Below are positions 69 through 28,259 of a stretch of 32,899 nucleotides of DNA, piece after piece. The notes below the pieces were generated by a model, which searched no databases, had not been told where the DNA came from, and saw only the letters and a program-made list of their open reading frames with translations. The stretch covers positions 1 through 32,899 of the IMG/VR virus record IMGVR_UViG_3300046011_003454. One strand, 5' to 3'. The position numbers and the translations under genes were made by a program. This DNA is from a virus. Numbering within the stretch: position 1 is the stretch's first letter; each line of letters opens with the position of its first letter.

Positions 69-1568
69 TCAATAAAATGCCGCTTTGCGGAATTGCGGTT
101 GGATCTCAATGTCTTCTTCGTCGGTCGGGATCACGAATCCGCCCTGTCTAAACCGCATCAGAGCCATTGTCACGGCGTCAACGTAGTCGTCGTGGTCCCC
201 GGAGGGGAATGCGGCGCATTCCTCAACCACCTCCTCGGCAAATCGGTCGTCTGGTGCCCAAACCACACCCGACGCGAATACGTCTGTGATCGAGTTTACA
301 CGCACGATCTTGTCGCCCGTCGCCCGAGTCGGTGTAAACTCCTGCACAGGAACGCCAGCATTACGTAATTCTGCAATCAGGGGAGCACCGGAAGCCTTCT
401 TTTCGACGATGAACATGTCGGGCTTCCAATCCTTGTAATATTGGACCGTTGTGGCCTTCAGTTCGGGGAATTCCAGCTTATCCTTCCACGCATCCAACAG
501 AATCAGGTTTGGAATTGGCTTTCCGGTGGCATTGGGATGGTTAAAAACCCCGAAACAGACGCAGGCTGAGTAGTCGGAACGCTCAGTCTTGGAGAATGCA
601 GTGTCCATCGCGACGATAACCGCCTCAACCGAAGGTGGTTTTTCGCCTTCCCACACGTTCCACCAATCCCTCTTGATCAGAGCGCCCTCTTCCGAGGTCG
701 GGTCCTGCTGGTACTGCGCCGACCACTTGGAGATCGGAAGCTCAACTTTAAGTCGTTGAAGCTCGTCGATTGACCAAAACTCCGGCCAGAGAGGGTCTCC
801 CGATGGCATGATTGCAGGAAGCTCTATGACCTCCCACTCTCCGGCACCCTCTTTTTTAACGGATGCGTCGATGATTTGGCCGGTAAGATCCCTCTTTGCC
901 CACCGAGTCATCACTATTACGATTGCACCTCCCGGTTGCAAACGCTGGCGAGGTCCGGAGGAGTACCACTCAAACACCTTGTCGTAGACGGAGCCGTCAA
1001 ATTGGCCGATCATGGCCTCCTGCTCCGAATGAGGGTCGTCAATGATCAAAAGATCAGCGCCCTTACCCGTAACAGCACCGCCAACACCGATAGCGAAGTA
1101 TTCACCACCCTTGTTTGTCGACCAGCGTCCTGCGGCCTTTGAGTCCGACTGCAACCCAACCCCACTAAACACCTTCTGGTAATCGTCCGAGCCGACAAGG
1201 TTACGGACCTTGCGACCGAATCCAACGGCAAGTTCGGCGGTGTGGGCCGTCTGGATGATTTTTTTGTCCGGATACTTCCCGAGGAACCACGCTGGCAGCA
1301 GGTAAGACGCGAATTCAGACTTTGTGTGCCGGGGTGGCATGTTGATGATCAGGCGCTTCAGCTCGCCCTTGGCGACACGCTCAAAGGCGTCAGCCATGAT
1401 CTTGTGATGCCTTCCGGAGATAAACCCCGGCCACATCATCTTCACGAAGTCAAGGTAGTGCTCCTGAGCCGATTCGCGCTGGCGGGCCTCATCCAAAGCA
1501 CGAAGAAGCCGGAGGATCTCCGGCTTCTCTTCTTCTGGTATTTTACTTATGATTTCCGCGTAATTCAA
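69..1568 (-). CDS. terL: Terminase large subunit (packaging ATPase-nuclease)
   Basis: This is the motor that pumps DNA into the prohead and cuts the concatemer. The 499-residue product has the usual two-domain order. A Walker A-like loop INMPPRHTKSEF lies near residues 75-86, and Walker B ADLLIIDDPH near 171-180. A coupling motif follows at VIVMTRW (217-223). The C-terminal RNase H-like nuclease has AMDTAFSKTERSDY (320-333), VEKKASG (388-394) and SGDHDDYVDAV (456-466). The start is a TTG that overlaps the TGA of the upstream HNH gene (TTGA), with GAGGGG just upstream as ribosome binding site. This arrangement means translational coupling to the HNH gene. Length is typical for the family. Confidence 0.96.
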   Translation of the reverse strand: MNYAEIISKIPEEEKPEILRLLRALDEARQRESAQEHYLDFVKMMWPGFISGRHHKIMADAFERVAKGELKRLIINMPPRHTKSEFASYLLPAWFLGKYPDKKIIQTAHTAELAVGFGRKVRNLVGSDDYQKVFSGVGLQSDSKAAGRWSTNKGGEYFAIGVGGAVTGKGADLLIIDDPHSEQEAMIGQFDGSVYDKVFEWYSSGPRQRLQPGGAIVIVMTRWAKRDLTGQIIDASVKKEGAGEWEVIELPAIMPSGDPLWPEFWSIDELQRLKVELPISKWSAQYQQDPTSEEGALIKRDWWNVWEGEKPPSVEAVIVAMDTAFSKTERSDYSACVCFGVFNHPNATGKPIPNLILLDAWKDKLEFPELKATTVQYYKDWKPDMFIVEKKASGAPLIAELRNAGVPVQEFTPTRATGDKIVRVNSITDVFASGVVWAPDDRFAEEVVEECAAFPSGDHDDYVDAVTMALMRFRQGGFVIPTDEEDIEIQPQFRKAAFY

Positions 1569-2074
1569 TAGCTTTTCCCCTCGGCATAGCGCTGGCGACG
1601 ATAGTGTCTTCCATTTCCCTTGTTCCTAGCCTTGTAAGTCGGGGTTTGAGAATGGCAATTGGGGCATATCAGGCACACATTGTTTGGAGAGTTGTTTTCA
1701 CTGTTTCCATCAATGTGTTCAAGTTCAAGAGATATGGCTTTAGATTGCCACTCAGATACCCCGCACACCGCACACTTGTATCCATTTATGTCCGATAATA
1801 TAAGTTTTATTGTCTTGCTTGACTTTATCGACATAGCCCCAGACAGCCAAGCCAACCCCTTCTCTTCACGAACCTCGCGATGAAGACGCTTGGTCAACTC
1901 GGAGCGAGCTTTTGGCGGGCACTTTGTTCTCTTTCCACGACTTTGCATTCGCTTACATTCAATGCATTGACCGCTTTGAGTGTATCTTTCTGAAACATGG
2001 CCATTCACGCAAGGTGTGCTAGAAATGTACCTTACGTCCCCCCTTTCTATTGCCGCTTTTCTTTCTTTGTACAA
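1565..2074 (-). CDS. HNH endonuclease next to the terminase
   Basis: The 169-residue protein carries a C-terminal HNH/ββα-metal motif: CAVCG, then LELEHIDGNSENNSPNN, then CPNCHSQT. Its N-terminus holds a separate Cys/His cluster, PCVNGHVSERY followed by CIEC, also seen in the HNH protein at 5818-6417. The only in-frame start is a TTG at 2074, one base after the CCA end of tRNA-Thr. It overlaps the terminase start by four bases. HNH proteins encoded beside the terminase take part in DNA cleavage during packaging in HK97-like phages. It could equally be a free-standing homing endonuclease that landed beside the tRNA. The family call is firm; the role is inferred. Confidence 0.88.
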   Translation of the reverse strand: MYKERKAAIERGDVRYISSTPCVNGHVSERYTQSGQCIECKRMQSRGKRTKCPPKARSELTKRLHREVREEKGLAWLSGAMSIKSSKTIKLILSDINGYKCAVCGVSEWQSKAISLELEHIDGNSENNSPNNVCLICPNCHSQTPTYKARNKGNGRHYRRQRYAEGKSY

Positions 2075-2075
2075 T

Positions 2076-2150
2076 TGGTTCTCCCACCCAGAGTTGCACT
2101 GAGTTATCCGGGTTACAAATCCGGTGCATCACTGCCAATGCTTTAGGAGA
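2076..2150 (-). tRNA. tRNA-Thr, anticodon UGU, CCA encoded
   Basis: I folded this by hand on the minus strand. The acceptor TCTCCTA pairs with TGGGAGA, followed by discriminator A and an encoded CCA. The D-arm is GCAT/ATGC with an 8-nt loop. The anticodon arm is CCGGA/CCCGG (one A-C mismatch at the loop end) with loop TTTGTAA, so the anticodon is TGT (Thr, ACA codons). The variable loop is 4 nt, and the T-arm is CTCAG/CTGGG with loop TGCAACT. Total length is 75 nt with all standard arms. The loop sequence TGCAACT departs slightly from the usual TTCRANY. Confidence 0.9.
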
Positions 2151-2184
2151 ATAATATCACACTGTAAGAGCAAGTGTAAGTGCT

Positions 2185-2215
2185 GCCATTGCTCTACCAA
2201 CTGAGCTACCCCGGC
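2185..2215 (-). other. tRNA 5' half (tRNA remnant or attP core candidate)
   Basis: On the minus strand this reads as a textbook tRNA 5' half: acceptor GCCGGGG, TA, D-stem GCTC, loop AGTTGGTA, D-stem GAGC, then A. No 3' half able to pair with GCCGGGG follows. The next ~30 nt contain AGCA-CTTACACT-TGCT, which resembles a degenerate anticodon arm. The first bases of this segment are also the last codons and TAG stop of the upstream DnaA-like gene. It may be a decayed tRNA or a copy of a host tRNA segment used for integration. Confidence 0.6.
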
Positions 2216-2754
2216 ACGTATCCCATTATCTCGTCTACGGCCCTGACCTTGTCAGCAAATACAGCCTTGTACCGCTCGAACTTCTTCATCGAGTTCATAA
2301 TCGTGGCGTGGTCGCGGCCAAGATGCTTGCCCAACGCAAGGTAGGAAAGCCCCGGAAGATACCTCTTGACAGCCCATGCGTGGTGGTGCCGGGCAACCAT
2401 GATGTGCTGATCTCTGGTCCTGCCAGCAACTTCTGCGGGGTTGTATCCATAGACCTCAGATACGGCCTCAAGGGCAAGATCTGAAATGCAGGCTACGTGC
2501 TCCCTGTAGCATTCAAGCCTCTCCTGACGCTCAGAAAGGATCTTCGCCCTCTTCTCTGCCATGGCCTTGATCCGATCAACTGGAGCCTTTACCCTCACGT
2601 CGGGTGTGTATTTGGTCTCTTTCGGGGTTTGAAATTTCCGCTGGGCGCGGACAATCTCAATGCTCTCCTTGCTAACCGGCTCATCAAACCTGTTCGTTGG
2701 CTCCCAGAAGAACTTGCCCTCAAGAGCCTTTGCCATCTGGGCTTCAAGATCCAC
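2206..2754 (-). CDS. Protein with DnaA domain IV (DnaA-box-binding HTH)
   Basis: The 182-residue product ends in a clear DnaA C-terminal DNA-binding domain (about residues 97-165). It has EVYGYNPAEVAGRTRDQ, then ARHHHAWAVKRYL, then GLSYLALGKHLGRDHATI, the last matching the DnaA signature helix-turn-helix. The AAA+ domain of DnaA is missing; the N-terminal ~90 residues are charged and unrecognised. I chose GTG at 2754 because GGAG lies seven bases upstream, and the frame upstream is occupied by the glycosyltransferase C-terminus. It overlaps that gene by 11 bases. It could recruit or compete for DnaA boxes, or act as a regulator; this is inferred from the domain only. Confidence 0.8.
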   Translation of the reverse strand: MDLEAQMAKALEGKFFWEPTNRFDEPVSKESIEIVRAQRKFQTPKETKYTPDVRVKAPVDRIKAMAEKRAKILSERQERLECYREHVACISDLALEAVSEVYGYNPAEVAGRTRDQHIMVARHHHAWAVKRYLPGLSYLALGKHLGRDHATIMNSMKKFERYKAVFADKVRAVDEIMGYVPG

Positions 2755-3565
2755 TTTGCTTCTCCTCAATCCTGCGAAGTGTGTCGATAAGGTGCCCCAC
2801 AGATCCCTTGAATCCATAGGCACCATAGTGGGTATTCATGGCCCAAGGGAAGAGCCATATGTCACCACCCATCTCACGCCATTTCAGGCAGAAGTAGTAG
2901 TCTTCTGACAGATATCTTCCGTTAAAAATCCCGGTCCTGAAGAAGGCGTGCATCTTCTTTTCAACGCCAGACAGTACGTCGCGAGAATGATCCGAGACAT
3001 ATGCGTTGTCGGGATATGACTCCATCATTCGTTTAAACACATCACGCTTGATAAGCATCATGCCGGTGCCAGCCTCGCTAACCCGGACAATCTCCCCCAT
3101 CTTCGTTTGCTGATCGAGGGTTGAGAAAACATATTCACCGACGAGCTTCTCAAGGCTTTCCTGATTTGTCTCGCCGGTTTGAATCGCGGCAATAATCACA
3201 GGCCAATTGATGTGCTTCTTTGGGTACGGGCCGCAGATGACATCCTTGTCATATGACATCATCGCAAGGACATCCTCTGGCCTGAACTGGATGTCGGCAT
3301 CAATGAACAGCAGCCAGTCGGCATCGCTCTTGGTCAGGAATTCATAGACCAATCCGTTGCGGGCTCGGTCTATGAGGCTCTCGTTCATCATAAAGCAGTG
3401 CTGGAAGCCAATTTCGTATTGGTGGCACCGATCCTGCAACTGAAGCACACTTGAGAAGTACATGGTGTTACCCATGCCGCCATACATTGGCGTGGCAAGC
3501 ATGACCTTCTTGCCCTTCAGTTTCCCGACATTGATCTTTAGTTCCCGTTCATTCGTTGACATCAT
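2744..3565 (-). CDS. Glycosyltransferase, GT-A fold
   Basis: The 273-residue protein shows the nucleotide-sugar binding pattern of GT-A enzymes. It has a β-strand KKVMLATPMYGG near 19-30, then ADWLLFIDADIQF with a DxD motif at about D89-D91. Further on lie EAGTGMMLIKRDVF and SEDYYFCLKWREMGGDIW, the acidic acceptor-side region. There are two adjacent in-frame ATGs. AGGATCAATG precedes them, and the start overlaps the preceding gene's end. Phage enzymes of this type may glycosylate phage DNA, virion proteins or host surface sugars; which applies here cannot be told. Its place in a packaging/lysis operon is not typical for a lysogenic-conversion gene. Confidence 0.78.
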   Translation of the reverse strand: MMSTNERELKINVGKLKGKKVMLATPMYGGMGNTMYFSSVLQLQDRCHQYEIGFQHCFMMNESLIDRARNGLVYEFLTKSDADWLLFIDADIQFRPEDVLAMMSYDKDVICGPYPKKHINWPVIIAAIQTGETNQESLEKLVGEYVFSTLDQQTKMGEIVRVSEAGTGMMLIKRDVFKRMMESYPDNAYVSDHSRDVLSGVEKKMHAFFRTGIFNGRYLSEDYYFCLKWREMGGDIWLFPWAMNTHYGAYGFKGSVGHLIDTLRRIEEKQSGS

Positions 3566-12740: not shown

Positions 12741-12990
12741 GCTTCCCCTCCAGCGCGGCGCGGGCTTCTTCTGATGTCTCCACTTTAAGTAAGACCACAC
12801 CCTCCATAAGTAGATCATCACAATCGTAGTTTGGGTACTGCAATAGGAAACCCTGACCAGAACAGAACTCGACAACGGTGAACGCCTTCAGTGCATACGC
12901 CCGCAGCCTCTCAATCTCATCTGCGGCTTCCCACCTGTAATCGCTCTGGTTTAGCGATGCTTGTCTCAATACCTCAACGATGTCAGTCAC
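12733..12990 (-). CDS. Hypothetical protein, 85 residues
   Basis: It begins MTDIVEVLRQASLNQSDYRW followed by EAADEIERLRAYALKAF. The leading half is the common phage pattern in which a small helical segment (xxAADEIERLR) precedes a variable tail. The start is GTG at 12990, overlapping the stop of the primase-helicase gene (GTGA). Confidence 0.65.
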   Translation of the reverse strand: MTDIVEVLRQASLNQSDYRWEAADEIERLRAYALKAFTVVEFCSGQGFLLQYPNYDCDDLLMEGVVLLKVETSEEARAALEGKHD

Positions 12991-14732
12991 AGCGTGAACT
13001 CCTCCTCTTGCTCGACAGGGCCGTCAATATACAGCGTTGTTGAAGTATCGTAAAGAAGATTTGTTGACCCTTGTTTGCCGACCCAACTAAACCGGCATTT
13101 CCACACATGGATCTGAACAACTTGCGGGGTTTCCTTTTCACGATGGACCGTGATCCCGCAGTCCGCCTTGGCGAACCATGCGGCCGACCCCGAGATGTCG
13201 AACCCACCCGGCACGGGGATCTTCCCGTCAGCACCACGCTGCATCTTCGTGGGATGTGCCACGAACCAAATGTGAATGCCGTGGCCCATCGCAAAGGCCT
13301 TCACCTTCGTGAGCATGTCTGAGATCCACTCCGTCTCAGACTTGTCACGGCTGTCTCGACTGATAAAATTGTAAGGGTCAATGACAGCACCGCGAATACC
13401 ATAACGCAGTATAGCCACACGCAGCCGGTCAAGAATACTGTCAAGGTCAGCAAGGCTGCCATCGTCCTGATGTACAAACGAGAAGTGCTCACCGACCCAC
13501 TTGATTGCAGCATCATATTCAGTCCTGTTCATGCGGGTATGAAACCCCGAGAAGAAGTGTAAACGCGCCCTCTTGGCCATCAGCTTGGCGATGTGGAACC
13601 GGGGCTCGTTCTCGAATGAACATATCCCAAAGTTCCAACCCCGTGCCGCAGCAAGATTGACCATCACTTGGTCAATGAACTCAGACTTACCAGAACTGGG
13701 TATGCCCGTAACAATCGTGACCTGTCCCGGAACGATGGTATATAGATCGTCCACCGTGGCATAACCCGTCGACTCGCCCTTGCCCAGTCCCTTGTCGTAT
13801 AGGTCCCATACCGTATCCTTGAAGTGCTCGATATCGTACAGGCCTTGGACGGGCCAAGCTTCCGCTTCGGCTGTTGCCTTCCGCAGAGCATCCGTGCCTT
13901 CTTTAAGAAGCAGGTCGTTTGAATCCTTGATACCGTCGGGGAACTTGACACGCCAGCACTTCTCTTTGCCCACTCGTCGAGCAATCTCTTCCGCAAGTGC
14001 GTTCCCCGGTCCATCTGCATCCGTCGCAACAACGATCCTCTTAGCTGCATCAATGTACTCCTTCGCATCCCACAGGAACCGGAACTTGGTGTCTTCCGCC
14101 GGGTCGATCTTGCCTTCGGTGATCTTCAGGTTAGCCCCGTTCGGCACGGAGACGGCGGTCATGCCAGCCTCCGCCATCGCGAGGACATCCATCTCCCCCT
14201 CGACAATGATCAAGTCATCGCCTTTCTTCAGACGGTGGAGTCCAAAGAATGTGCCGGGTGAACCAGAGCATTTAAACGCCTTGTCCTTCAGGTTGCGCTT
14301 CTTGATGGCGTTGACCATACCCTTGGCGTCAAAATACGGGAATCCGACATACTCGACCCCGCTGACCTCCTGCGACACAAGCTTCAGGCTCTTCGCAGTC
14401 GCAACAGAGATCCCTCGGGATTCCAAAAAATCATAGTGCCTATCGTCCAAGGACGGTAGATCGTCCCACTTGACCGGCACAAAGTCAGAGCTTGTGTGGG
14501 TTGTCATTTTTGCATAGCTCCTTTGCGTTTCTTGCAGGCGAACAACACCTGAAACCCCGCAGTCGCCATGGTAGCACTGATAAACAATGCGATCCCACTC
14601 CCGCAGGCTAGATAGGCAGGTGTCGTGCTTCTTCTTTCTGTTCGGCGAACACCAAGGACAGGTGTATCTATGCTGTCCATTCTTGGCGTGATTGATGAGC
14701 CATAGCTCTTCGGGGCCACGATTGTCAGCCAC
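12987..14732 (-). CDS. Bifunctional DNA primase-helicase (T7 gp4 type)
   Basis: The 581-residue replisome protein would make primers and unwind the fork. The N-terminus has a zinc site (CPWC at 25-28 and CYHGDC at 53-58). The TOPRIM primase core has IIVEGEMDVLAMAEAG (175-190) and VVATDADGPGN (234-244). After a linker, the RecA-like DnaB-family helicase has Walker A TGIPSSGKS (342-350), SFENEP (371-376) and Walker B GAVIDPYNF (448-456). The start is GTG at 14732 behind AAAGGAGGG. Length is close to T7 gp4. No DNA polymerase is present in the window. Confidence 0.95.
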   Translation of the reverse strand: MADNRGPEELWLINHAKNGQHRYTCPWCSPNRKKKHDTCLSSLREWDRIVYQCYHGDCGVSGVVRLQETQRSYAKMTTHTSSDFVPVKWDDLPSLDDRHYDFLESRGISVATAKSLKLVSQEVSGVEYVGFPYFDAKGMVNAIKKRNLKDKAFKCSGSPGTFFGLHRLKKGDDLIIVEGEMDVLAMAEAGMTAVSVPNGANLKITEGKIDPAEDTKFRFLWDAKEYIDAAKRIVVATDADGPGNALAEEIARRVGKEKCWRVKFPDGIKDSNDLLLKEGTDALRKATAEAEAWPVQGLYDIEHFKDTVWDLYDKGLGKGESTGYATVDDLYTIVPGQVTIVTGIPSSGKSEFIDQVMVNLAAARGWNFGICSFENEPRFHIAKLMAKRARLHFFSGFHTRMNRTEYDAAIKWVGEHFSFVHQDDGSLADLDSILDRLRVAILRYGIRGAVIDPYNFISRDSRDKSETEWISDMLTKVKAFAMGHGIHIWFVAHPTKMQRGADGKIPVPGGFDISGSAAWFAKADCGITVHREKETPQVVQIHVWKCRFSWVGKQGSTNLLYDTSTTLYIDGPVEQEEEFTL

Positions 14733-16247: not shown

Positions 16248-16600
16248 CGGATGGCCTCCACTGTGATCTCAGCTCGTGGATCGGACTTGTCGAGGCCCCA
16301 ATAAATGTGCTGCTCCTTGAGTTGCCTGTCGTTCAGATAGATGCAGTCCTGCATGAGATCGAAGATGAGGCTTGGGTCGAGGTCCGGTCTGCGCGATGCG
16401 TAGTAAATCCTGACTGTGATCTTGAGGTCACCCAACATGAGCGGATTGAGCACGGGGCATTGCTCCTTGAACGCCTTGCTGTACTTTAGGGCCTTTTCCG
16501 ACTTGATGAAGAACTTGCCAGTCCAGCGCCGACTGTTTGCCTTACTTGCAGGCTCTCCGTGTACGGTGAATTTTACTGTTGACTGTTGCTCTTCGCTCAT
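16244..16600 (-). CDS. rusA: RusA-like Holliday junction resolvase
   Basis: The 118-residue endonuclease resolves four-way junctions and branches before packaging. The family pattern is intact: FTVHGEPASKANSRRWTGKF (11-30), then YYASRRPDLDPSLIFDLMQD (66-85) and LNDRQ (89-93). D73, D75 and D91 correspond to the three catalytic aspartates of RusA. DPRAEITVEAI ends the fold as usual. I chose ATG at 16600. The divergent nuclease gene starts only 14 bases away on the other strand. Confidence 0.92.
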   Translation of the reverse strand: MSEEQQSTVKFTVHGEPASKANSRRWTGKFFIKSEKALKYSKAFKEQCPVLNPLMLGDLKITVRIYYASRRPDLDPSLIFDLMQDCIYLNDRQLKEQHIYWGLDKSDPRAEITVEAIR

Positions 16601-16614
16601 GTATTCCGGGGTCC

Positions 16615-17559
16615 ATGAAAATAACAAACCACTACAACATACCTGAAACAATCGTTAGGGCAGTGCTCGATGACGAGTATGACCGTGGCGATTCTGTGAT
16701 GTCTGTTACCCAACTCATATCACCACCGAGAATCGTTCTACTACAAGATGTAAACAAAGACAACTTGGAGTTGGATGTTGTGGACAAGGTTCCAGCTCTG
16801 CTGGGAACCGCAGTTCACAAGATCATAGAAAAAGGCTCAGCAGGAATTCCGGGCCATATTGTTGAGGAGCGCATGTTCGCCGAGGTTCTGGGGTGGAAGA
16901 TCTCCGGGGCTGTGGACTTGCAGATCGACAATGGTGACGGAACTTGGGCAATCAACGACTACAAAGTCACGAGCGTTTACTCGGTGCTTTCAGACAAACC
17001 TGAATGGGAACAACAGCTTAACTGCTACGCATACCTGTCTTACATCACGCATGGCCGTAAGGTGTCGAGCCTCAAGATTGTCGCAATACTGCGCGATTGG
17101 CAACGCAAACAGGCCGGACTAAAACCTGATTACCCGCAGTCTCAGATTGCTGTTGTTGACATCCCGGTGTGGACCCCGATGCAGCAGAAGACGTTCGTTG
17201 AGGATCGTGTGGCCCTGCATCAGGCGGCACAGAAAGCTGTTGACAATGGCGAGCCTCTCACTTATTGTACAGATCAAGAGCGCTGGGTTCGTGGCGAATC
17301 GTGGGCTCTTATGAAGGAGGGCCGCAAGAGCGCGGTTAAGCTATATGACAACAAAGAAGATGCAGTCTCCGCAGCAAAAGAGCTTGGAGAAGCAAGAGGA
17401 CTCAACCCCGGACATTACATCGAACACAGACCCGGCAGCCCTGTTCGCTGCGCCGGTAACTACTGCCTCGTTTCCTCGTGGTGCCGACAATACCAAGAAG
17501 AACTTAGCGGCGGCGCTGGCGGCGGCTCAGGCGGAATGCCAGAACGTCACGATGAATAA
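16615..17559 (+). CDS. PD-(D/E)XK nuclease, RecB/Cas4-like with Cys cluster
   Basis: The 314-residue exonuclease-type protein has GTAVHKIIEKG (64-74), KISGAVDLQI (95-104), WAINDYKVTS (111-120, the D-x-K catalytic strand) and EQQLNCYAYL (132-141). That is the motif order of RecB-family nucleases. Four cysteines (218, 279, 284, 290) form a C-terminal group CAGNYCLVSSWC plus one upstream, as in the iron-sulfur-bound Cas4/AddB nucleases. With ERF next door it fits a 5'-3' exonuclease plus annealase recombination pair. A possible promoter TTGACT-17-TATTCC (16579-16607) would give almost no leader. Its last 215 bases overlap the ERF frame. Confidence 0.88.
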   Translation: MKITNHYNIPETIVRAVLDDEYDRGDSVMSVTQLISPPRIVLLQDVNKDNLELDVVDKVPALLGTAVHKIIEKGSAGIPGHIVEERMFAEVLGWKISGAVDLQIDNGDGTWAINDYKVTSVYSVLSDKPEWEQQLNCYAYLSYITHGRKVSSLKIVAILRDWQRKQAGLKPDYPQSQIAVVDIPVWTPMQQKTFVEDRVALHQAAQKAVDNGEPLTYCTDQERWVRGESWALMKEGRKSAVKLYDNKEDAVSAAKELGEARGLNPGHYIEHRPGSPVRCAGNYCLVSSWCRQYQEELSGGAGGGSGGMPERHDE

Positions 17560-18438: not shown

Positions 18439-18618
18439 CCAATAGCTGCCGAGAGGTAGAGCCGGTGGGATTTCCTCCTTTCCTCCGCGACCGGCACCAT
18501 TACGACTCCAGTGGAAAAACGGAAGAGGCTATAGTGGTAGCTGATTTTGTGTGGAGCCCCGCAATCTGGAGCGCAGACCGCCAATAACGTGAAGGCGGTC
18601 AATTTATCGGAGGAAAAA
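18439..18618 (+). promoter_or_regulatory. Leader region of the C5 methyltransferase with hairpin
   Basis: GACCGCC (18576-18582) pairs perfectly with GGCGGTC (18594-18600) across 11 bases. This stem ends eight bases before the ribosome binding site CGGAGG. A GCCGGT/ACCGGC inverted repeat lies further upstream. No clear promoter is seen. The hairpin could be an operator or translational control for the methyltransferase. Confidence 0.45.
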
Positions 18619-19365
18619 ATGAACGTGCTTGATCTTTTTTCCGGCATTGGTGGATTCTCCCTTGGGCTCGAAAGGGCGGGGATGAAGACGGTTGCATTTT
18701 GTGAGATTGACAAGAAGGCGCAACTTGTGCTGAAGAAGCACTGGCCTGAAGTTCCGATCTTTGAAGATGTGTCAAGGCTCAAGAAGGAGGATATCAATGA
18801 GCAAGTTGACGTTATTTGTGGAGGATTCCCCTGCCAAGACATCAGTCTTGCAGGAAGAGGGGAGGGACTTGATGGAAAGCGAAGCGGACTCTGGTTTGAG
18901 TTCCACAGGCTCATCAAGGAAATCAGGCCGCGCTACGCGATCATCGAAAACGTCTCAGCCCTTCGCTCTCGCGGATTGGAAGAAGTGCTCAGGGGGATCT
19001 CTGAGATCGGGTACGATGCGGAATGGCATTGTATACCCGCTTCCGCCGTTGGTGCCCCTCACCAAAGGGACAGGATATGGATCGTTGCCTACATTGGCGG
19101 CTCGGGAGGGGAGGGATTGGTCGCAAGCACAGATATTGGCAAGGCTAGACAAGGGTGGGTGCGTTGCGAGAAGAATTTGTTCTACATCTCAAGCTCTCCG
19201 TTCCAGTCAGGAGATCGTTGGCCTACACCCCTCATTCGGAGAATGGATGATGGGATTCCCAATAGGGTGGACAGACTTAAACAACTCGGAAACGCCGTAG
19301 TACCGCAAATACCAGAACTAATCGGCACCGCAATTATGAATGCTGAAAGGTTGAAAAAAGCATGA
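18619..19365 (+). CDS. DNA cytosine-C5 methyltransferase
   Basis: The 248-residue enzyme has the main C5 motifs: I, LDLFSGIGGFSLGLE (4-18); IV, GGFPCQDIS with nucleophile C72; VI, IIENVSAL (108-115); VIII, HQRDRIWIVA (148-157); and X, LGNAVVPQIPELIG (223-236). The target-recognition region between VIII and the end is only about 50 residues, much shorter than in HaeIII-type enzymes. ATG at 18619 follows CGGAGG. No cognate restriction enzyme is evident, so host-restriction evasion or regulation is likely. A second gene is nested inside it in the +1 frame. Confidence 0.93.
   Translation: MNVLDLFSGIGGFSLGLERAGMKTVAFCEIDKKAQLVLKKHWPEVPIFEDVSRLKKEDINEQVDVICGGFPCQDISLAGRGEGLDGKRSGLWFEFHRLIKEIRPRYAIIENVSALRSRGLEEVLRGISEIGYDAEWHCIPASAVGAPHQRDRIWIVAYIGGSGGEGLVASTDIGKARQGWVRCEKNLFYISSSPFQSGDRWPTPLIRRMDDGIPNRVDRLKQLGNAVVPQIPELIGTAIMNAERLKKA
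18797..19300 (+). CDS. Nested +1-frame protein inside the C5 methyltransferase gene
   Basis: The 167-residue frame lies wholly inside the methyltransferase gene. AAGGAGG (18784-18790) sits exactly six bases before its ATG. The protein starts MSKLTLFVEDSPAKTSVLQE, has LRSGTMRNGIVYPLPPLVPL and SLPTLAAREGRDWS, and ends LHPSFGEWMMGFPIGWTDLN-NSETP. These blocks match a phage family I recognise (EDSPAKTS ... SGTxRxGxxYxLPPLVPxT ... LPTP ... LNPxFxEWxMGFPxGWTDL), usually unlabelled or called methyltransferase-associated. SPAKTS is the +1 reading of the catalytic CQDIS codons, and GFPIGWTDL of the GIPNRVDRL codons. Function is unknown; it may partner the methyltransferase. Confidence 0.7.
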   Translation: MSKLTLFVEDSPAKTSVLQEEGRDLMESEADSGLSSTGSSRKSGRATRSSKTSQPFALADWKKCSGGSLRSGTMRNGIVYPLPPLVPLTKGTGYGSLPTLAAREGRDWSQAQILARLDKGGCVARRICSTSQALRSSQEIVGLHPSFGEWMMGFPIGWTDLNNSETP

Positions 19366-21622: not shown

Positions 21623-22075
21623 ATGACCGAGTGGGCCAAGAAGAACACCCTGCAATGTGAAGTTGTGAAGATAGCCATGTCGCAGGACAAGAACGGGCAT
21701 GTCCTGAAGCTGGCCATCCACCCAAACGACCTTCCAAAGGATCTAGTGTTGGATCCTCTTGGTTCACGGTATGTTATGGTGCTTGCGCGTCTAAATGATC
21801 AAGACGAAATTATGGCCCCGAAGGAGAAGACAGATGGGGAAAGGGCGGTGGCTTCTGCCAGTCTTATGTGCCGTAATGATCGGTTTGTGGCTTGGCTTGC
21901 TGATCGGGGTTACGCTCGTGATGACACTGAAGATTCCGCCCGTGAAGGGGTTCGAGAATTTTGCTCCGTCAAATCCATCTCCGAGCTGGCCACCAACGAA
22001 GACGCGCGTCGTAAGTTTGTAGGATTGAGAGAAGAGTTTGACCGGGCAGTTAAAAAAGGAGAGGCACCAAAATGA
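21623..22075 (+). CDS. Conserved phage hypothetical protein, 150 residues
   Basis: It starts MTEWAKKNTLQCEVVKIAMS, then QDKNGHVLKLAIHPNDLPKD and RYVMVLARLNDQDEI. The second half has ERAVASASLMCRNDRFVAWL and SVKSISELATNEDARRKFVG. The scheme (QCExxKIAMSQDKxGHxLKLxIHPxDxP ... AGxLCRxxxF ... SxxEL) is a recurring phage family whose function I do not know. It starts one base after the previous stop and overlaps the integrase start (ATGA). Confidence 0.75.
   Translation: MTEWAKKNTLQCEVVKIAMSQDKNGHVLKLAIHPNDLPKDLVLDPLGSRYVMVLARLNDQDEIMAPKEKTDGERAVASASLMCRNDRFVAWLADRGYARDDTEDSAREGVREFCSVKSISELATNEDARRKFVGLREEFDRAVKKGEAPK
21834..22022 (+). CDS. Possible nested membrane protein, 62 residues
   Basis: In another frame of the preceding gene, AAGGAG is followed after seven bases by ATG. 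The product reads MGKGRWLLPVLCAVMIGLWL, then GLLIGVTLVMTLKIPPVKGF: one strong transmembrane segment with a Pro-rich tail (APSNPSPSWPPTK). Nested spanin and holin-like genes are known in phages. It may also be a chance product of the conserved codons beneath it. Confidence 0.35.
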   Translation: MGKGRWLLPVLCAVMIGLWLGLLIGVTLVMTLKIPPVKGFENFAPSNPSPSWPPTKTRVVSL

Positions 22076-22890
22076 CGTTCGAGGAATTGTTCAGGAAATA
22101 TGAAAGGTCGCCGGGGTTTGAAAAGCTCTCGGTCAAATCAAAACAGGCATACATCTATTGCGGCAAACGAATAGCTGCACAGCTTGGAGATATGGATGTG
22201 ACCTCTGTTCGGAGGTCAACCTTCATCAAGATGCAGGGCGACATGAAGGACACACCCGCTTTGGCGAACCTGTTCACGCGGATCGCGTCCATTGCTTTCT
22301 CATATGGCGTGGATCTGGACATCATCAGCGCCAATCCGGTTGCGGGGCTCAAGTCCCTAAAGACAGGGGGCCACGAAAAATGGAACCCCGAAGAGGTCAG
22401 GCAGGTGATTGCATTGAATGATAGGAAGATCTCAACCGCAGTTGCGCTTGCGTGGTACACCGGCCAGCGCGAAGGCGACATCTTGTCGATGCGTTGGTCC
22501 GACTACAAGGACGGCTACATCTCTCTGGCACAGCAGAAGACCGGGCAAGAGATGAAGCTGAAGGTGCATCCCGATCTTGAGGCGTACCTTGATTCTGTGC
22601 GCGGCACGGAGCCTGAGGGGTACTTCATTGTGTCGGGCAAGAATCAGGTGACCGGAGGGTCTTTCCGCGTCACGTTCAGGCGGAAGATGGATTCTATCGG
22701 GATCAAGAAGACATTCCACGGCATCCGCAAGGGCGTGGCGTGTTCTCTTGCCGAGAATGGCAGGTCCGTAAATGAAATAGCCGCCATCCTCGGTCACAAG
22801 ACCATTAGAATGGCGGCGTATTATGCGGATCAGGCCAGTGGAAAAAGGCTGGCTGAGAATGCCGTGAGCAGCATTGTTAGCTGCGTTTAG
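22072..22890 (+). CDS. int: Tyrosine recombinase (integrase)
   Basis: The 272-residue protein has an N-terminal SAM-like core-binding domain and a catalytic domain with all key residues. These are R133 in TGQREGDIL, K156 in QQKTGQEM, H216-x-x-R219 in FHGIRKG, H242 in LGHKT, and the Tyr nucleophile at 250/251 in AAYYAD. It lacks the N-terminal arm-binding domain of lambda integrase and is closer in size to compact phage integrases. The gene ends convergent with the big virion gene, overlapping it by four bases. It marks the phage as temperate or derived from one. Confidence 0.94.
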   Translation: MTFEELFRKYERSPGFEKLSVKSKQAYIYCGKRIAAQLGDMDVTSVRRSTFIKMQGDMKDTPALANLFTRIASIAFSYGVDLDIISANPVAGLKSLKTGGHEKWNPEEVRQVIALNDRKISTAVALAWYTGQREGDILSMRWSDYKDGYISLAQQKTGQEMKLKVHPDLEAYLDSVRGTEPEGYFIVSGKNQVTGGSFRVTFRRKMDSIGIKKTFHGIRKGVACSLAENGRSVNEIAAILGHKTIRMAAYYADQASGKRLAENAVSSIVSCV

Positions 22891-25800
22891 CGGCCAATCT
22901 TCTCGTTGATTTCGGAAACCTTTGAAGCAAGATTGAGGCGGGTCTCGCGGAGCTTCCGCATCGCCTCAAACTTCTCATCTCGTGTCATCTCCTGATCGGC
23001 TGCGATTTGACGCTCTCTTGCGGCAAGCTTGTTTAGACCTTCAACAAGCCTGAACACATACTTCCTGTACGAAAGCACATCACGATTCTCGTCGAGGTAG
23101 TCTTTTACTGCCTCGGCGTCACCAATCTGCTTCAGCCTGCTGAACGACCTGTTGGCTTCATCTACAACGCGGAACAGTTCGTAGGCCTGAGAGACGACCT
23201 TTGGATTGCGGTCCTCTGTGTCAATGAAGAATCGCCGAACAACGGGCATTTCACTGAGGCTTCTTGGCAATCTTTCGGGGCCGACATCAAAATTTTCCAT
23301 AGCAAGAGACGCAGCCTGAGATATATAGGTTCCAAAAGGTCCGGCGTAGCCGCCAATCAGATTGTCGATCACAATTGGGCTTGCGCCCTCGAATCTGCCG
23401 GTCGTCATGTCGTAGAAAATCGGCACACCGCTAATCATCATGGCCAATTGAGACGTTCTGGCGTTGTACTGAAGCTCCGGGGCAAGTCGGGCTTGACCTT
23501 CAGATATCAGAGGGAGGCCGGTATAGAAATCGTGGTTGACAATCACCTCAAGTGCCGGAAGCATGAACTGGGGAATCGGGGTTATACCAAATGTTGAAGC
23601 GAAAGAAGATGTAAACAGAGCCACGTTCTCTCTTGTAGATGCCTCTCCAGTCATGCTCTTGTAGAACTGCTGCGGGAACGTGCTGAACAAGAGACCGGCT
23701 TCAAACGCCTTCGGGACTGCAATGAACTCCCCCTTGAGGCCGAATCCAGAAAGTGGGATCAACAGGTTGGCGTTCTTTACGTAGTCTTCAATTTGCTGAT
23801 AGTCCTCGTCGTCTTCATTGATCATTTCGAGGGCCATTGATATGGCGGCTAGCATACCGCCACGAATCAAGAACTTCTTTCCGAGGTTTGCCTCACTTTC
23901 ACTGCGAGCCTTGCCAATTGCCACGCGGACACCTGCCTGACCCGCTTGATAAAGGACATCAAGACCCTGAATGCGTGCGTTCAAGAACGGGACAAGCTTT
24001 GTCAGTATGGACAGTGTCTGGCTTGCACCGTGACGGCTGAAGTTCATGATCCTGAGCGCCTGCCAAGATGCCTCCGCCTCAGAAAGACCTTTAGCCCGCG
24101 CAGCATCAAACACAGCTATGCGTGTTGCCGCATCTGACATTTCTGATAGGGCACCGAGCCTATTCCAAATCGTGGATGTTGCGGCGACAAGAGCCTGAGA
24201 GCTAGTTATCATGTGTATATTCTTGGGCATCTTGTCGCGGCGAATACGAGCAGCAAGTTCTCTTGGCCCAATCATGGCACGGTCATAGGAGCCAACGATG
24301 CCGCGAGACTGGAGGGCTTGGAAGCTTGCGCCATTACTGTACGCATTAGCAAAACCCTTGACTGTCCCGATGAATGGCAGAATGTCAGCCCCGGATGTGA
24401 TCCAAGCGGCTACCGTATCTCGCATAAGGTTCGCAACCATGAAGCCCGGATCTCTGGTGATCGACTCACGGAGCCAGCCAGTCGGCAGGCCCATAACTTC
24501 CCAGAACCTTCCAACGTTTACACGGTCGTCCGATCCAAGAGCCGTCACAAGCAATGGATCGCTGACTGCGAACCTTCTTTCGACGCCCTTGTCACGATAA
24601 AACATGACCTGATCTTCTTCGCCGCGAGTCCTGTCGGGGTCCTCGCCCGTGCCGAGAGCCCTAGCAACACCCATGCGCTTGGCAAGTTCAAATGATTTTC
24701 TGGTTGCAATATTTTTGGCAATTGCCGAGACCCAGAAATTCATGTTCGTGAGCATCACGTACATTGGGTCATTAACGAGACCGCCAAGCTCCGTGCCCTT
24801 ATACGGACGAAGATTAAATCGGCTCGCTGTCTTTGTCGAAATGTTGGGGCCTTTTACCTCCTCAAACACTTCGTAATAATAGCTGTAGTAATCCATGCGC
24901 TTGGTGAGGTCTGCAAGCTCCTGTTGGCTTATGACCTCAGCCTCGACCGCTGCCTCAAGGAGGCGCTTGTTGAAGCGCTGATACATTTTGTATGCTTCAA
25001 CAATCTCCGGGTAGTTTGTCTCGGTGAACGAGATCGTCTCCCTTACTGCGGCATCTGTCAGCTCCGCCGGTACGCGCTTTCCTTCAGCCTTTAGGCCGAT
25101 TGCCCTCTTGGCTGTTGCGTATAGACGCCATATCTTGCGCTTGTCTTCTTGCTGGCCAGTTTCTGGATTGATTTGCCCCGGCTCAAGCATGACAGAAAAA
25201 ACATTACCGAGATTGTCTGGGCTTTCCCTCGTCTTAATTGTCGAAGAGAGGATATCCCCGGACTGATCTTTTTCAATGTACATTATGCCTTTGTAGGCGA
25301 GATCAACGGCCAGATGACTGGCCCTGTCCTTCATTTCAAGTGCGAAGAGGGAGGAGTAGTCAGCAGACTCAAGCTCGAATCCCTTGCCCTTAATTTCCGA
25401 CTCCATCTTTTCAAGATGGTCGATTACAGTGTTCTTGTCTACCGCAGCCGCCCGACCAATCAATCCGGCACGGGTCCACTTGCCGATTTTCACGTCCCCA
25501 TACAAAGGACTTTTGAACACGCGATCAGTTGGGGTTTCCGAAAGGAAGAAGTCGAAGACCATATCCTTGAACGATTTCTGTGGTGCCGGGGCGTAAAGCT
25601 TTTCGTTCATCGCCTCCAGATTTGCGGGAAGCGGGGCTGCCGAAACTCTTACATCAGTTTTGATTGTTGGCTCTGCGGCTCCTTCATCGACCTGAGTTTC
25701 CACCACGGGGGCTGCTTCGCGACTTCCAACCTCTCCCGACTCAATGCGACGGAATACCTGCGTCTGTGCATCAGACTTCAAAACCCCGAAGATGCGACGG

Positions 25801-28259
25801 AAGAACTCACGCAGACGATTGAGAAGGCCGGTAGCATTCTGCACAGGCTTGGACTTGCCGCTAACCCAGTCCTTGTACATTTCAGCAACGGCCTCTTCGA
25901 GTACCGCCTCGGGGTCTGCGTAAACGCCGCCCATTGGCTCATACACAGCCTGCGCCTTGTCAAGATATGTGTAGCTCTTTCCCGGCACCTTTGTGTTCTT
26001 GACGGCCTTGGACAGGATGTTCCATTCGGCAGGACGGAACAAACCCATGCGACGGACAACGTGGATGATCTCGTGGTTCATCACTTCCGTCAGGGCTTCG
26101 ATGTTCTGCTCAACCGTCAGCCTCGGGTCGAGAATGCCCTTGGACAATTCCAGAATGATCTTCATGTCATTCGGGGTGCCCTTCGCGTCCACAAAGCCAC
26201 GGACCAGATATCCGGGCTTCTTGTCGATCATCTCGCGAAGCACAGGCTCGATGCCCGGCAGGTTCAGAGTTGAGAGGCGGGACTTCAGGCCTGTGAATAC
26301 ACGCTCATCAAAAGCCTTCTGCTCAGGAGTGTAGTCCCGGGGCGCTGTGACTTCAGCGGTGACCTCTCTGACTGTCTTCGGGGTTGGCGCAACCTCTGGT
26401 AGCGGCCCCGCAGATAGCTGCTCGGGTGGTGCCTCGGGTGGACGGCTAAGGATATCCTGCGCCTCCTCCGGACGCATGTTGAAGATCTGCTCCTCGGTGT
26501 AACCACGACCCCGGAGATCAGAGCGGATCTTGTTGGTCATCATGAACGGCACGGAGCCGACGGTCGGGGGCGCTTCCGGGGCCTCAATAACCGCCTCAGG
26601 AGCCTCCACAGCGGCTTCTTCCGCCATACCTATCGGAGACACCGGCTCAACAGAAACGGCCTCAGGGACGTCCGTAATGGCTTCTGGGGGCGTCTCCAAG
26701 GTGGGTGCCGGGGTAGCTTCCGGAGCAGTCACCTCTGGCGCTGGAACCTCAGGAGCAGGCTGTGTGATTATGGGAGCAGCCGTTGTGCCGGTAATGAACT
26801 CATCAAGCGGCTTGAGTTGCTTCTCAAGGCCCTCGATCCTCTTGGAGGTCTGTTTGGTGAACTCCTCGGGAGACACCTTGTTTTGCGTTGCACCAATCTG
26901 TGTGAATTCCGGGGTCGATATGTAAAGCTTCGACTTCTCAATCTCGGTCGCAATGCGATCCCGAGACGCCTTGATTTCATCGGCGCTTTTGTATTGCTGA
27001 CGGCCAATCTTGACGGGGAATATGCTCGGGGCTTCTGCCGCCTCAATAACGTCAACCTTGGCCCCTGTCTTGGCCTTGTAGATGTCCAGAGCTTCCGTCA
27101 CGGCATTCCGGTCGGCGAACTCTCCAATGATGTTACCGGCACGGGTCTTCAGGCTGAAGATGGGGACGTTCTCCACCTCATCCTGAATGACCTCTACGGG
27201 GCCTTCAACATTGTATTGGCGGAGCTGTTCCGCAGCCGTCGAGATGATGCCCCGACGAGCGTCAATCGCATTCTGCTGTTTCTCAGCCGCCAAGTCCTTC
27301 TGGAGTTGACGGTAGGGACGGAGCCTGCGACCAGCGGCAAGCTGAACGAGACCCTCAACGAACGAACCGGCAAATGCGCCAGTGCCTGCGCTGCTAAGGA
27401 GATCCTGCCCGATCTGCACGTCAGGATTGTAGACCCCGTATTCCATGAGATCGTTGGCAATGCCGGATGCGGCTTCCTGTGCGCCTTCAGCAAGACCGGC
27501 CTTCGTGATCTTCGCCAGACGGCTCTTCACGATCTTTTCAACGACAGGTGCCTTGGATGCTGGAACCTTGCTCAGCAACTGTGTGAGTGGCCCGAAGAAG
27601 CGCTCAAGAGGCGCAGCTTCTAAAGAGCCAATCAAGCCGCTGAGCTGCTGGGACGCAAGCTGTGTCTCGGGGCTGATCTCCATGCCGGACGCAAGCTGTC
27701 CGCGAATCGTTTCTGCACGTTGTCCGGCACCAAGGGCAACACCCTGTGCCGCAGCAGTGGCCGTGCCTGCGCGGGTCGCAATCCGAGCTGCTTTTTCTGC
27801 CGCAGCAATCTCGCCAAGAGCGCCAGCCGCACGAGCACCACGACCGGCAAGCGATGCGACCTTCGCCACACCTGTTGCTGGAATCAGGAACGAACCAACG
27901 CTACCAAGAGCCTCCGCCGCCTGCTGTGCTGCGGTTGGATCCTTGGTCGGATCAATTCCGAATGTTTCCTGAAGGTACTTGCGTGACTGCTCGGAGATCT
28001 GTCCGAGAGAAGATGCCGCAGCCTGTTCGGCTGGCATCACAAGAGCAGCAATGCCGCCCGGGATTTCAGTAATGCCAGTGGCAAAACCATAAGCCGCCCG
28101 ACCCAGAAGGGTGGACTCATCAGGACCTGACGGAGGCGCGGCAGGGGTCGAACCACGGCCATACACCTTGTCAACATATGCAACGATTTCAGCGTTAGAG
28201 GCTTCGTCGGGAAAGTCAATGACACTGCCCGCCGCTGGAACGTATATAGATTTAGGCAT
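22887..28259 (-). CDS. 1790-residue polyvalent virion/ejection protein with HEXXH domain
   Basis: The giant protein likely enters the host with the DNA. It begins MPKSIYVPAAGSVIDFPDEA, a common opening for such proteins, then long Ala/Gly-rich helices. A Pro/Ala/Glu-rich linker (~residues 485-620) follows. A metallopeptidase-like domain has EVMNHEIIHVVRRMGLF (HEXXH near residue 730) and a downstream Glu helix LEEAVAEMYKDW (~790). A C-terminal part around 1280 (DPGFMVANLMRDTVAAWI) resembles the LPD38-type domain of large polyvalent proteins. The tail is helical. No lysozyme motif was seen. Neighbouring structural genes are the same strand. Confidence 0.82.
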   Translation of the reverse strand: MPKSIYVPAAGSVIDFPDEASNAEIVAYVDKVYGRGSTPAAPPSGPDESTLLGRAAYGFATGITEIPGGIAALVMPAEQAAASSLGQISEQSRKYLQETFGIDPTKDPTAAQQAAEALGSVGSFLIPATGVAKVASLAGRGARAAGALGEIAAAEKAARIATRAGTATAAAQGVALGAGQRAETIRGQLASGMEISPETQLASQQLSGLIGSLEAAPLERFFGPLTQLLSKVPASKAPVVEKIVKSRLAKITKAGLAEGAQEAASGIANDLMEYGVYNPDVQIGQDLLSSAGTGAFAGSFVEGLVQLAAGRRLRPYRQLQKDLAAEKQQNAIDARRGIISTAAEQLRQYNVEGPVEVIQDEVENVPIFSLKTRAGNIIGEFADRNAVTEALDIYKAKTGAKVDVIEAAEAPSIFPVKIGRQQYKSADEIKASRDRIATEIEKSKLYISTPEFTQIGATQNKVSPEEFTKQTSKRIEGLEKQLKPLDEFITGTTAAPIITQPAPEVPAPEVTAPEATPAPTLETPPEAITDVPEAVSVEPVSPIGMAEEAAVEAPEAVIEAPEAPPTVGSVPFMMTNKIRSDLRGRGYTEEQIFNMRPEEAQDILSRPPEAPPEQLSAGPLPEVAPTPKTVREVTAEVTAPRDYTPEQKAFDERVFTGLKSRLSTLNLPGIEPVLREMIDKKPGYLVRGFVDAKGTPNDMKIILELSKGILDPRLTVEQNIEALTEVMNHEIIHVVRRMGLFRPAEWNILSKAVKNTKVPGKSYTYLDKAQAVYEPMGGVYADPEAVLEEAVAEMYKDWVSGKSKPVQNATGLLNRLREFFRRIFGVLKSDAQTQVFRRIESGEVGSREAAPVVETQVDEGAAEPTIKTDVRVSAAPLPANLEAMNEKLYAPAPQKSFKDMVFDFFLSETPTDRVFKSPLYGDVKIGKWTRAGLIGRAAAVDKNTVIDHLEKMESEIKGKGFELESADYSSLFALEMKDRASHLAVDLAYKGIMYIEKDQSGDILSSTIKTRESPDNLGNVFSVMLEPGQINPETGQQEDKRKIWRLYATAKRAIGLKAEGKRVPAELTDAAVRETISFTETNYPEIVEAYKMYQRFNKRLLEAAVEAEVISQQELADLTKRMDYYSYYYEVFEEVKGPNISTKTASRFNLRPYKGTELGGLVNDPMYVMLTNMNFWVSAIAKNIATRKSFELAKRMGVARALGTGEDPDRTRGEEDQVMFYRDKGVERRFAVSDPLLVTALGSDDRVNVGRFWEVMGLPTGWLRESITRDPGFMVANLMRDTVAAWITSGADILPFIGTVKGFANAYSNGASFQALQSRGIVGSYDRAMIGPRELAARIRRDKMPKNIHMITSSQALVAATSTIWNRLGALSEMSDAATRIAVFDAARAKGLSEAEASWQALRIMNFSRHGASQTLSILTKLVPFLNARIQGLDVLYQAGQAGVRVAIGKARSESEANLGKKFLIRGGMLAAISMALEMINEDDEDYQQIEDYVKNANLLIPLSGFGLKGEFIAVPKAFEAGLLFSTFPQQFYKSMTGEASTRENVALFTSSFASTFGITPIPQFMLPALEVIVNHDFYTGLPLISEGQARLAPELQYNARTSQLAMMISGVPIFYDMTTGRFEGASPIVIDNLIGGYAGPFGTYISQAASLAMENFDVGPERLPRSLSEMPVVRRFFIDTEDRNPKVVSQAYELFRVVDEANRSFSRLKQIGDAEAVKDYLDENRDVLSYRKYVFRLVEGLNKLAARERQIAADQEMTRDEKFEAMRKLRETRLNLASKVSEINEKIGR

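Follow-up and report, generated by a model that had tools for sequence, protein, structure and literature searches.

A probable mobile HNH cassette that homes into and replaces tRNA-Thr(UGU) genes of phages

An orphan tRNA half beside a complete tRNA-Thr gene

The IMG/VR virus record IMGVR_UViG_3300046011_003454, whose 32,899 bases are referred to here as the window, harbours a complete tRNA-Thr gene next to an isolated tRNA 5' half. This raises the question of where the half came from, and how it is related to the complete tRNA and to the HNH gene that follows. The answer that we propose, with a probability of about 0.78, is that a mobile HNH cassette occupies the locus, one that homes into phage tRNA-Thr(UGU) genes and replaces them. 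The HNH gene appears to have invaded the only threonine tRNA gene of the phage, bringing a complete spare copy with it, and the half appears to be the scar. In order of transcription on the minus strand, the locus consists of the DnaA-like gene, the orphan 5' half, a gap of 39 nt, tRNA-Thr, the HNH gene and terL. These features, together with the integrase gene of the window, are as follows.

2206-2826, minus strand: DnaA C-terminal-domain-like gene (PF08299, E 3e-11)
2190-2215, minus strand: orphan 5' half of a resident tRNA-Thr(UGU), 26 nt, the presumed insertion scar (26/26 bases shared with the intact tRNA-Thr that occupies this site in L229/L002/L007)
2151-2179, minus strand: putative HNH promoter (-35 TTACAC at 2179-2174, 17 nt, extended -10 TG-A-TATTAT with the -10 at 2156-2151, abutting the tRNA 5' end)
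2076-2150, minus strand: incoming, complete (replacement) tRNA-Thr, anticodon UGU, encoded CCA (ARAGORN, Rfam)
1565-2074, minus strand: HNH endonuclease gene (TTG start assumed, 1 nt past the tRNA CCA; the TGA stop overlaps the terL start)
69-1568, minus strand: terL, right boundary of the insertion (TTG start in the window, ATG in the HNH-free relative)
22072-22890: integrase gene

The sequence from 2215 to 2190, GCCGGGGTAGCTCAGTTGGTAGAGCA, is a canonical tRNA 5' half up to position 26. Its positions 8-10 are the TAG stop codon of the DnaA_C-like gene, and the stop lies within the tRNA in the intact relative as well. The sequence-only reading had described a complete tRNA-Thr(UGU) with an encoded CCA, and this was borne out by ARAGORN, the check it had proposed, and by Rfam; both programs found a single tRNA in the window, a tRNA-Thr (TGT) at 2150-2076 on the minus strand (RF00005, 36.9 bits). 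That the half encodes the end and the stop codon of the DnaA-like gene, and that it has no 3' counterpart, also proved correct: the 26-mer occurs once in the window, and no matching 3' half was found anywhere within it. Codon usage for Thr in 11 ORFs of the window was nothing special (ACA, 78/253). The window also carries genes for an Anp1-like glycosyltransferase (2744-3565), a Toprim/DnaB-like primase-helicase (12987-14732), a PD-(D/E)XK nuclease (16579-17559) and a C5 cytosine methylase (18547-19365), as well as an ORF of 1790 aa (22887-28259).

Occupied and empty sites in close relatives

The locus was compared with that of a contig, IMGVR_UViG_3300042465_002588 (loci L002, L007 and L229 all derive from it), whose DNA is 97% identical to that of the window on both sides of the locus. 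In this relative, an intact tRNA-Thr(UGU) with the same first 26 bases is followed by 12 nt and then by terL, and the HNH gene is absent. Since a relative with both flanks 97% identical has an intact tRNA-Thr(TGT) that begins with the same 26 bases, the orphan half is no chance resemblance to a tRNA.

A scan with terL provided 80 relative loci, of which 41 (L229-L268 and L271; terL at least 87%, with the N-terminus) were used for counting within the lineage. L269 and L270, without the upstream part, and the more distant L272-L308 stood outside this count. One of the 41, L264, is also without the upstream part, leaving 40 informative loci. An intact resident tRNA-Thr(TGT) was present in 36 of the 40. 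Three others (L231, L234 and L252) carry the HNH gene, as does the window, and the last, L242, has a tRNA of the cassette type and no HNH gene, which is possibly the result of HNH loss. The tRNA-Thr of L242 (2887-2961) lies at the dnaA-terL junction, with no -10 element ahead of it. ARAGORN calls of tRNA-Thr in the close lineage end 12-13 nt ahead of terL in 33 of 38 cases. We infer that the ancestral order was probably the DnaA-like gene, tRNA-Thr(UGU) and terL. As deletion of an HNH gene cannot regenerate a lost tRNA 3' half, the state in the window would be the derived one. Among more distant terL relatives from cultured phages, a tRNA at terL was seen in 0 of the 5 inspected. In locus L003, terL (971-3361) is interrupted in frame by an intein-like insertion, and an HNH-like ORF (1867-2433) lies there in a different frame.

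These counts bear on the possibility that two tandem tRNA-Thr genes were ancestral and that one decayed, with the HNH gene arriving independently. Two tRNA-Thr(TGT) genes do occur in some phages, for example in L023 and L078. However, 36 of the 40 informative relatives have a single tRNA, of the resident type, between the DnaA-like gene and terL, the foreign tRNA occurs at the site only together with the HNH gene (L242 excepted), and none of the 40 has both tRNAs intact in the absence of an HNH gene. We regard tandem ancestry as improbable. The complete tRNA-Thr(UGU) of the window is the incomer and not the resident gene, and the half is what is left of the tRNA-Thr(UGU) native to the phage. 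The suggestion that a second tRNA had decayed after insertion of the HNH gene was therefore essentially right.

Structure and transfer of the cassette

All four HNH-bearing genomes share one anatomy. An orphan 5' part is followed by a short gap, at the end of which lies an extended -10-like element, then by the foreign tRNA-Thr(UGU) and by the HNH gene, whose stop codon overlaps or abuts the terL start in each of the four. The orphan parts of the window, L231, L234 and L252 are exact prefixes (26, 23, 14 and 20 nt in the four loci) of intact tRNAs of their kin and match three resident tRNA types: GCCGGGG (window, L231), GCCGAGG (L234) and GCCCGTT (L252). The foreign tRNA-Thr is 92-99% identical among the four genomes (92-97% between the window and the other three) and 49% identical to the resident type. 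The four loci share ancestry, so they are incompletely independent.

When L231 and L234 were compared, the cassette tRNA and the end of the HNH gene were 98-99% identical, whereas the first 600 bases of terL were 84% and the upstream region 66% identical. As the cassettes are more alike than their flanks, the cassette has moved between genomes. Two versions of the HNH N-terminal part occur, one shared by the window and L234 and the other by L231 and L252. In L277, a related cassette is followed by a 34-nt orphan tRNA-Thr 3' half identical to the 3' part of tRNA-Thr in L272. Comparison at the sequence level thus demonstrates the insertion site, the truncation and replacement of the resident tRNA, the polymorphism and the horizontal spread of the cassette.

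Two further explanations of the half can be judged here. The sequence-only reading had considered it as a possible attP core. An integrase gene is present at 22072-22890, and att sites are often found in tRNA genes. However, in the 97% identical relative these 26 bases are the start of a complete tRNA gene that belongs to the phage and has the equivalent syntenic position, and the halves follow the resident tRNA type in all four HNH-bearing loci. The points already raised against attP, that the segment is a 5' rather than a 3' end of a tRNA and lies about 20 kb from int, were upheld. A search of the genome contigs for relatives of the window integrase found none. With HNH-free relatives carrying the segment within an intact gene, attP identity was rejected as very improbable.

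The other explanation is that the half is the remnant of an HNH-carrying group I intron in the anticodon loop of a tRNA. HNH genes are known in introns and introns are known in tRNA genes (compare PMC3984707). On the other hand, the window contains no Rfam intron match, the 3' exon is absent in 4/4 HNH-bearing loci and the 5' exon in L277, and a complete, different tRNA is present. Without an Rfam core and with one exon missing, the intron was rejected, and we consider it hardly credible.

Allele pairs in T5-like and Klebsiella phages

Pairs of alleles with and without the HNH gene were also found in other phages. In the T5-like phages HdH2, PMBT27 and MET_P1_137_112, the HNH gene ends at the first base of tRNA-Thr. 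GEC_vB_N5, oldekolle, chee24 and KS_S14 served as the HNH-free T5-like set; between the two sets, tRNA-Thr hardly differs outside the anticodon stem. When tRNA-Thr of HdH2 and GEC_vB_N5 were aligned by eye, 8 of the 10 anticodon stem positions differed, as against 0/7 in the loop and 2/58 elsewhere, and the recoded stem of HdH2 retains perfect pairing. A 30-mer of the recoded form was found in 11 records representing 8 phages, five of which have the HNH gene, and the naive 30-mer in 288 records. Phagemcphageface (L309, 1202-1275), smaug and SelmaRatti have the recoded stem and no HNH match; they are possibly escape alleles or cases of HNH loss. Conversely, the HNH gene (at least 95%) was present in 7 T5-like phages, and the stem is recoded in 6 of them (3 inspected, 3 by the exact 30-mer), with MET_P1-88 left out. 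In a second T5-like group, represented by Klebsiella phage AmPh_EK80, a quite different tRNA-Thr(UGU) and an HNH gene lie between identical flanks shared with K7PH164C4; the latter carries a tRNA-Thr of its own and lacks the HNH gene at the equivalent site.

Identity of the HNH protein

The residues C101, C104, H120, N132, C137, C140 and H141, corresponding to the HNH and zinc-binding positions, are invariant in 23 aligned sequences. A profile of the HNH protein matches HNH nuclease chains in PDB with E values of 2e-5 and weaker. With Pfam HNH, the window protein scored below the cut-off (E 0.021), and the proteins of L277 and HdH2 above it. Foldseek matches were mostly HNH folds and weak, none reaching E <= 0.001. 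GIY-YIG was absent from the Pfam results for the protein, in which only HNH families were named. Close relatives differ in whether the gene occupies this site, and the empty allele retains an intact tRNA-Thr (36 loci). The HNH-bearing allele is altered at the presumed target, with the tRNA replaced in the window lineage and EK80 and the stem recoded in T5-like phages, and the alteration would lie at the target of the nuclease. Taken together, the protein is best read as acting like a free-standing homing endonuclease.

The HNH family and tRNA-Thr(UGU)

We grouped 80 relatives of the HNH protein into 50 clusters. A tRNA lies within 110 nt of the HNH gene in 45 of the clusters, and a tRNA-Thr(TGT) in 30. 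Thr(TGT) accounts for 30 of the 61 HNH-neighbour tRNAs, compared to 38 of the 344 tRNAs of the same loci (expected 6.7, hypergeometric p 4e-19). The adjacency count is a lower bound, as tRNA-Thr-like genes that we recognized by eye in L016, L020 and L026 were missed by ARAGORN. The other 20 clusters are without an adjoining ARAGORN tRNA-Thr(TGT), and other neighbours include Leu(UAA) (8) and Lys(UUU) (3). Orphan tRNA-Thr halves lie beside the HNH gene in L019 (a 5' half reaching into the anticodon loop), in L016 and L026, and in L053 (a 3' half). Half-like matches, counted with overlapping matches and redundant loci, amount to 1.0 per kb near HNH genes and 0.19 elsewhere. A broken or swapped tRNA-Thr beside this HNH family thus recurs across several unrelated phage groups. 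In the T4-like Escherichia phage L14 (L101, 1908-2546; L310), an HNH relative occupies the tRNA-Gln site of HNH-free T4-like phages, with 7 nt of the tRNA-Gln 5' end left and no replacement tRNA-Gln nearby.

The same data can be set against passive co-transfer, in which tRNA-HNH segments would be swapped by ordinary recombination at conserved tRNA sequences, with no targeting of tRNA-Thr and the half a by-product. The junctions do lie in conserved D-arm sequence (GGTAGAGC), a possible seed for recombination, and many HNH genes reside in the tRNA arrays of large phages. Passive exchange does not sit well with the dominance of one anticodon among the neighbours, with the restriction of the T5-like change to the anticodon stem next to the HNH gene, or with the independent repetition of the swap in Klebsiella phages. 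We consider it unlikely, while giving it more weight than the alternatives discussed above.

Proposed mechanism

In the homing mechanism that we favour, a cassette composed of the promoter, the foreign tRNA-Thr(UGU) and the HNH gene would have displaced the resident tRNA from position 27 onward, along with the 12-nt spacer to terL. The 26-nt 5' half would have been kept in part for its coding role, since the DnaA-like gene ends in it. The HNH protein would cut the tRNA-Thr gene of a cassette-free phage in or near the anticodon arm, and the cassette-bearing genome would template repair of the break. The cassette tRNA, diverged in the anticodon arm, would escape cutting and supply the UGU tRNA function, which would make the invasion cheap for the phage. 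The spare gene copy would play the role that splicing plays for an intron.

We infer that the nuclease cuts the anticodon-arm region because the 5' halves end at or before approximately position 34, the 3' halves start around the point where the anticodon stem ends on its 3' side, and in T5-like phages nearly all of the change falls within that stem. The cassette tRNA would presumably resist cutting. We looked for a universal resistance pair at 31-39, and C-G was found in 8/38 HNH-adjacent and 33/149 other tRNA-Thr(TGT), showing no difference. Recognition must therefore differ between subfamilies or lie elsewhere.

A broader view, which we hold tentatively and at somewhat less than even odds, is that widespread selfish phage cassettes are specialised on tRNA-Thr(UGU), acting as destroyer and rescuer at once: the HNH protein would destroy the naive gene and the cassette would supply a recoded tRNA with the same anticodon. 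The replacement tRNA may, in the lineage of the window, double as an expression switch for the nuclease. If true, this would explain the turnover of phage tRNAs, particularly tRNA-Thr(UGU), and their proximity to HNH genes. Some phage tRNAs would then be kept or swapped through nuclease selection for uncleavable copies rather than for codon usage, and a selfish gene would have a simple, splicing-free route into an RNA gene.

Relation to known systems

Integrative elements with tyrosine integrases restore the tRNA gene that they enter by bringing sequence that preserves its function. The cassette resembles them in that the incoming sequence preserves tRNA function, and differs in that a whole, diverged tRNA is brought, no integrase acts at the site and a phage gene is targeted. 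In cyanophages, F-CphI reportedly targets psbA, with protection through an intron, whereas protection of the cassette would come from a diverged full copy of the gene. The likeness to F-CphI and intronless homing lies in a free-standing nuclease beside its target gene with its own allele protected, as described in passages of PMC6083498.

The nearest precedent is SegB of T-even tRNA regions. T4 SegB and its homologues are likewise free-standing nucleases in a phage tRNA region, where SegB breaks DNA inside tRNA genes (passages of PMC13096335), and control by a promoter plus RNA structure (passages of PMC13096335 and PMC2988022) is a further likeness to what is predicted for the cassette. SegB is a GIY-YIG nuclease, whereas that of the window is HNH. 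SegB is associated with tRNAs without isotype preference, according to passages of PMC13096335, whereas the HNH family favours tRNA-Thr(UGU). The cassette brings a replacement tRNA of the destroyed specificity, a feature that the passages of PMC13096335 and PMC2988022 do not describe for SegB. In open-licence literature, with most subscription papers outside its scope, neither an HNH cassette that brings a replacement tRNA nor a preference for tRNA-Thr(UGU) turned up. The homing-endonuclease mode is already known; these two features are what sets the cassette apart from SegB-type homing as described there. Further, hegA / F-TflIV and other HNH genes of T5-like tRNA regions are distant relatives (44% over 78 aa), and hegA of BF23 follows tRNA-Ile and does not adjoin tRNA-Thr.

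Expression of the HNH gene

An extended -10-like element ends exactly at tRNA position 0 or 1 in 6/6 cassettes, against a background of 67 such elements in 470,094 bases of related loci. A promoter consensus scan of the window alone was not significant (1 found, 0.9 expected). From its position against the tRNA 5' end, the putative promoter would start HNH mRNA inside the tRNA. Read-through RNA would fold as tRNA, with the Shine-Dalgarno sequence hidden in the acceptor arm, and RNA begun at the tRNA-abutting promoter would lack the 5' strand, freeing the Shine-Dalgarno sequence. By folding, exposure was predicted to rise clearly in four of the six cassettes; the rise was slight in one and absent in one. 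The acceptor arm as a hairpin-like expression switch is thus supported only partly by these models. In T4 homing genes, according to passages of PMC2988022, the ribosome site can be masked by a hairpin, and the promoter is sited such that this hairpin cannot form in late transcripts.

The hairpin of the orphan D-arm exceeded shuffled sequences in 3 of 8 loci, but not in the window. In these three, the D-arm and downstream sequence form a strong hairpin (L252, 2107-2155, z -5.5; L016, 3801-3856, z -3.1; L026, 3795-3850, z -3.4), which has perhaps been reused for regulation. In larger phages, the motif TATAAATA, which we take to be that of T4 late promoters, was found in the 80 nt preceding the HNH start at 22 of 80 loci (a redundant set), with 0.9 expected.
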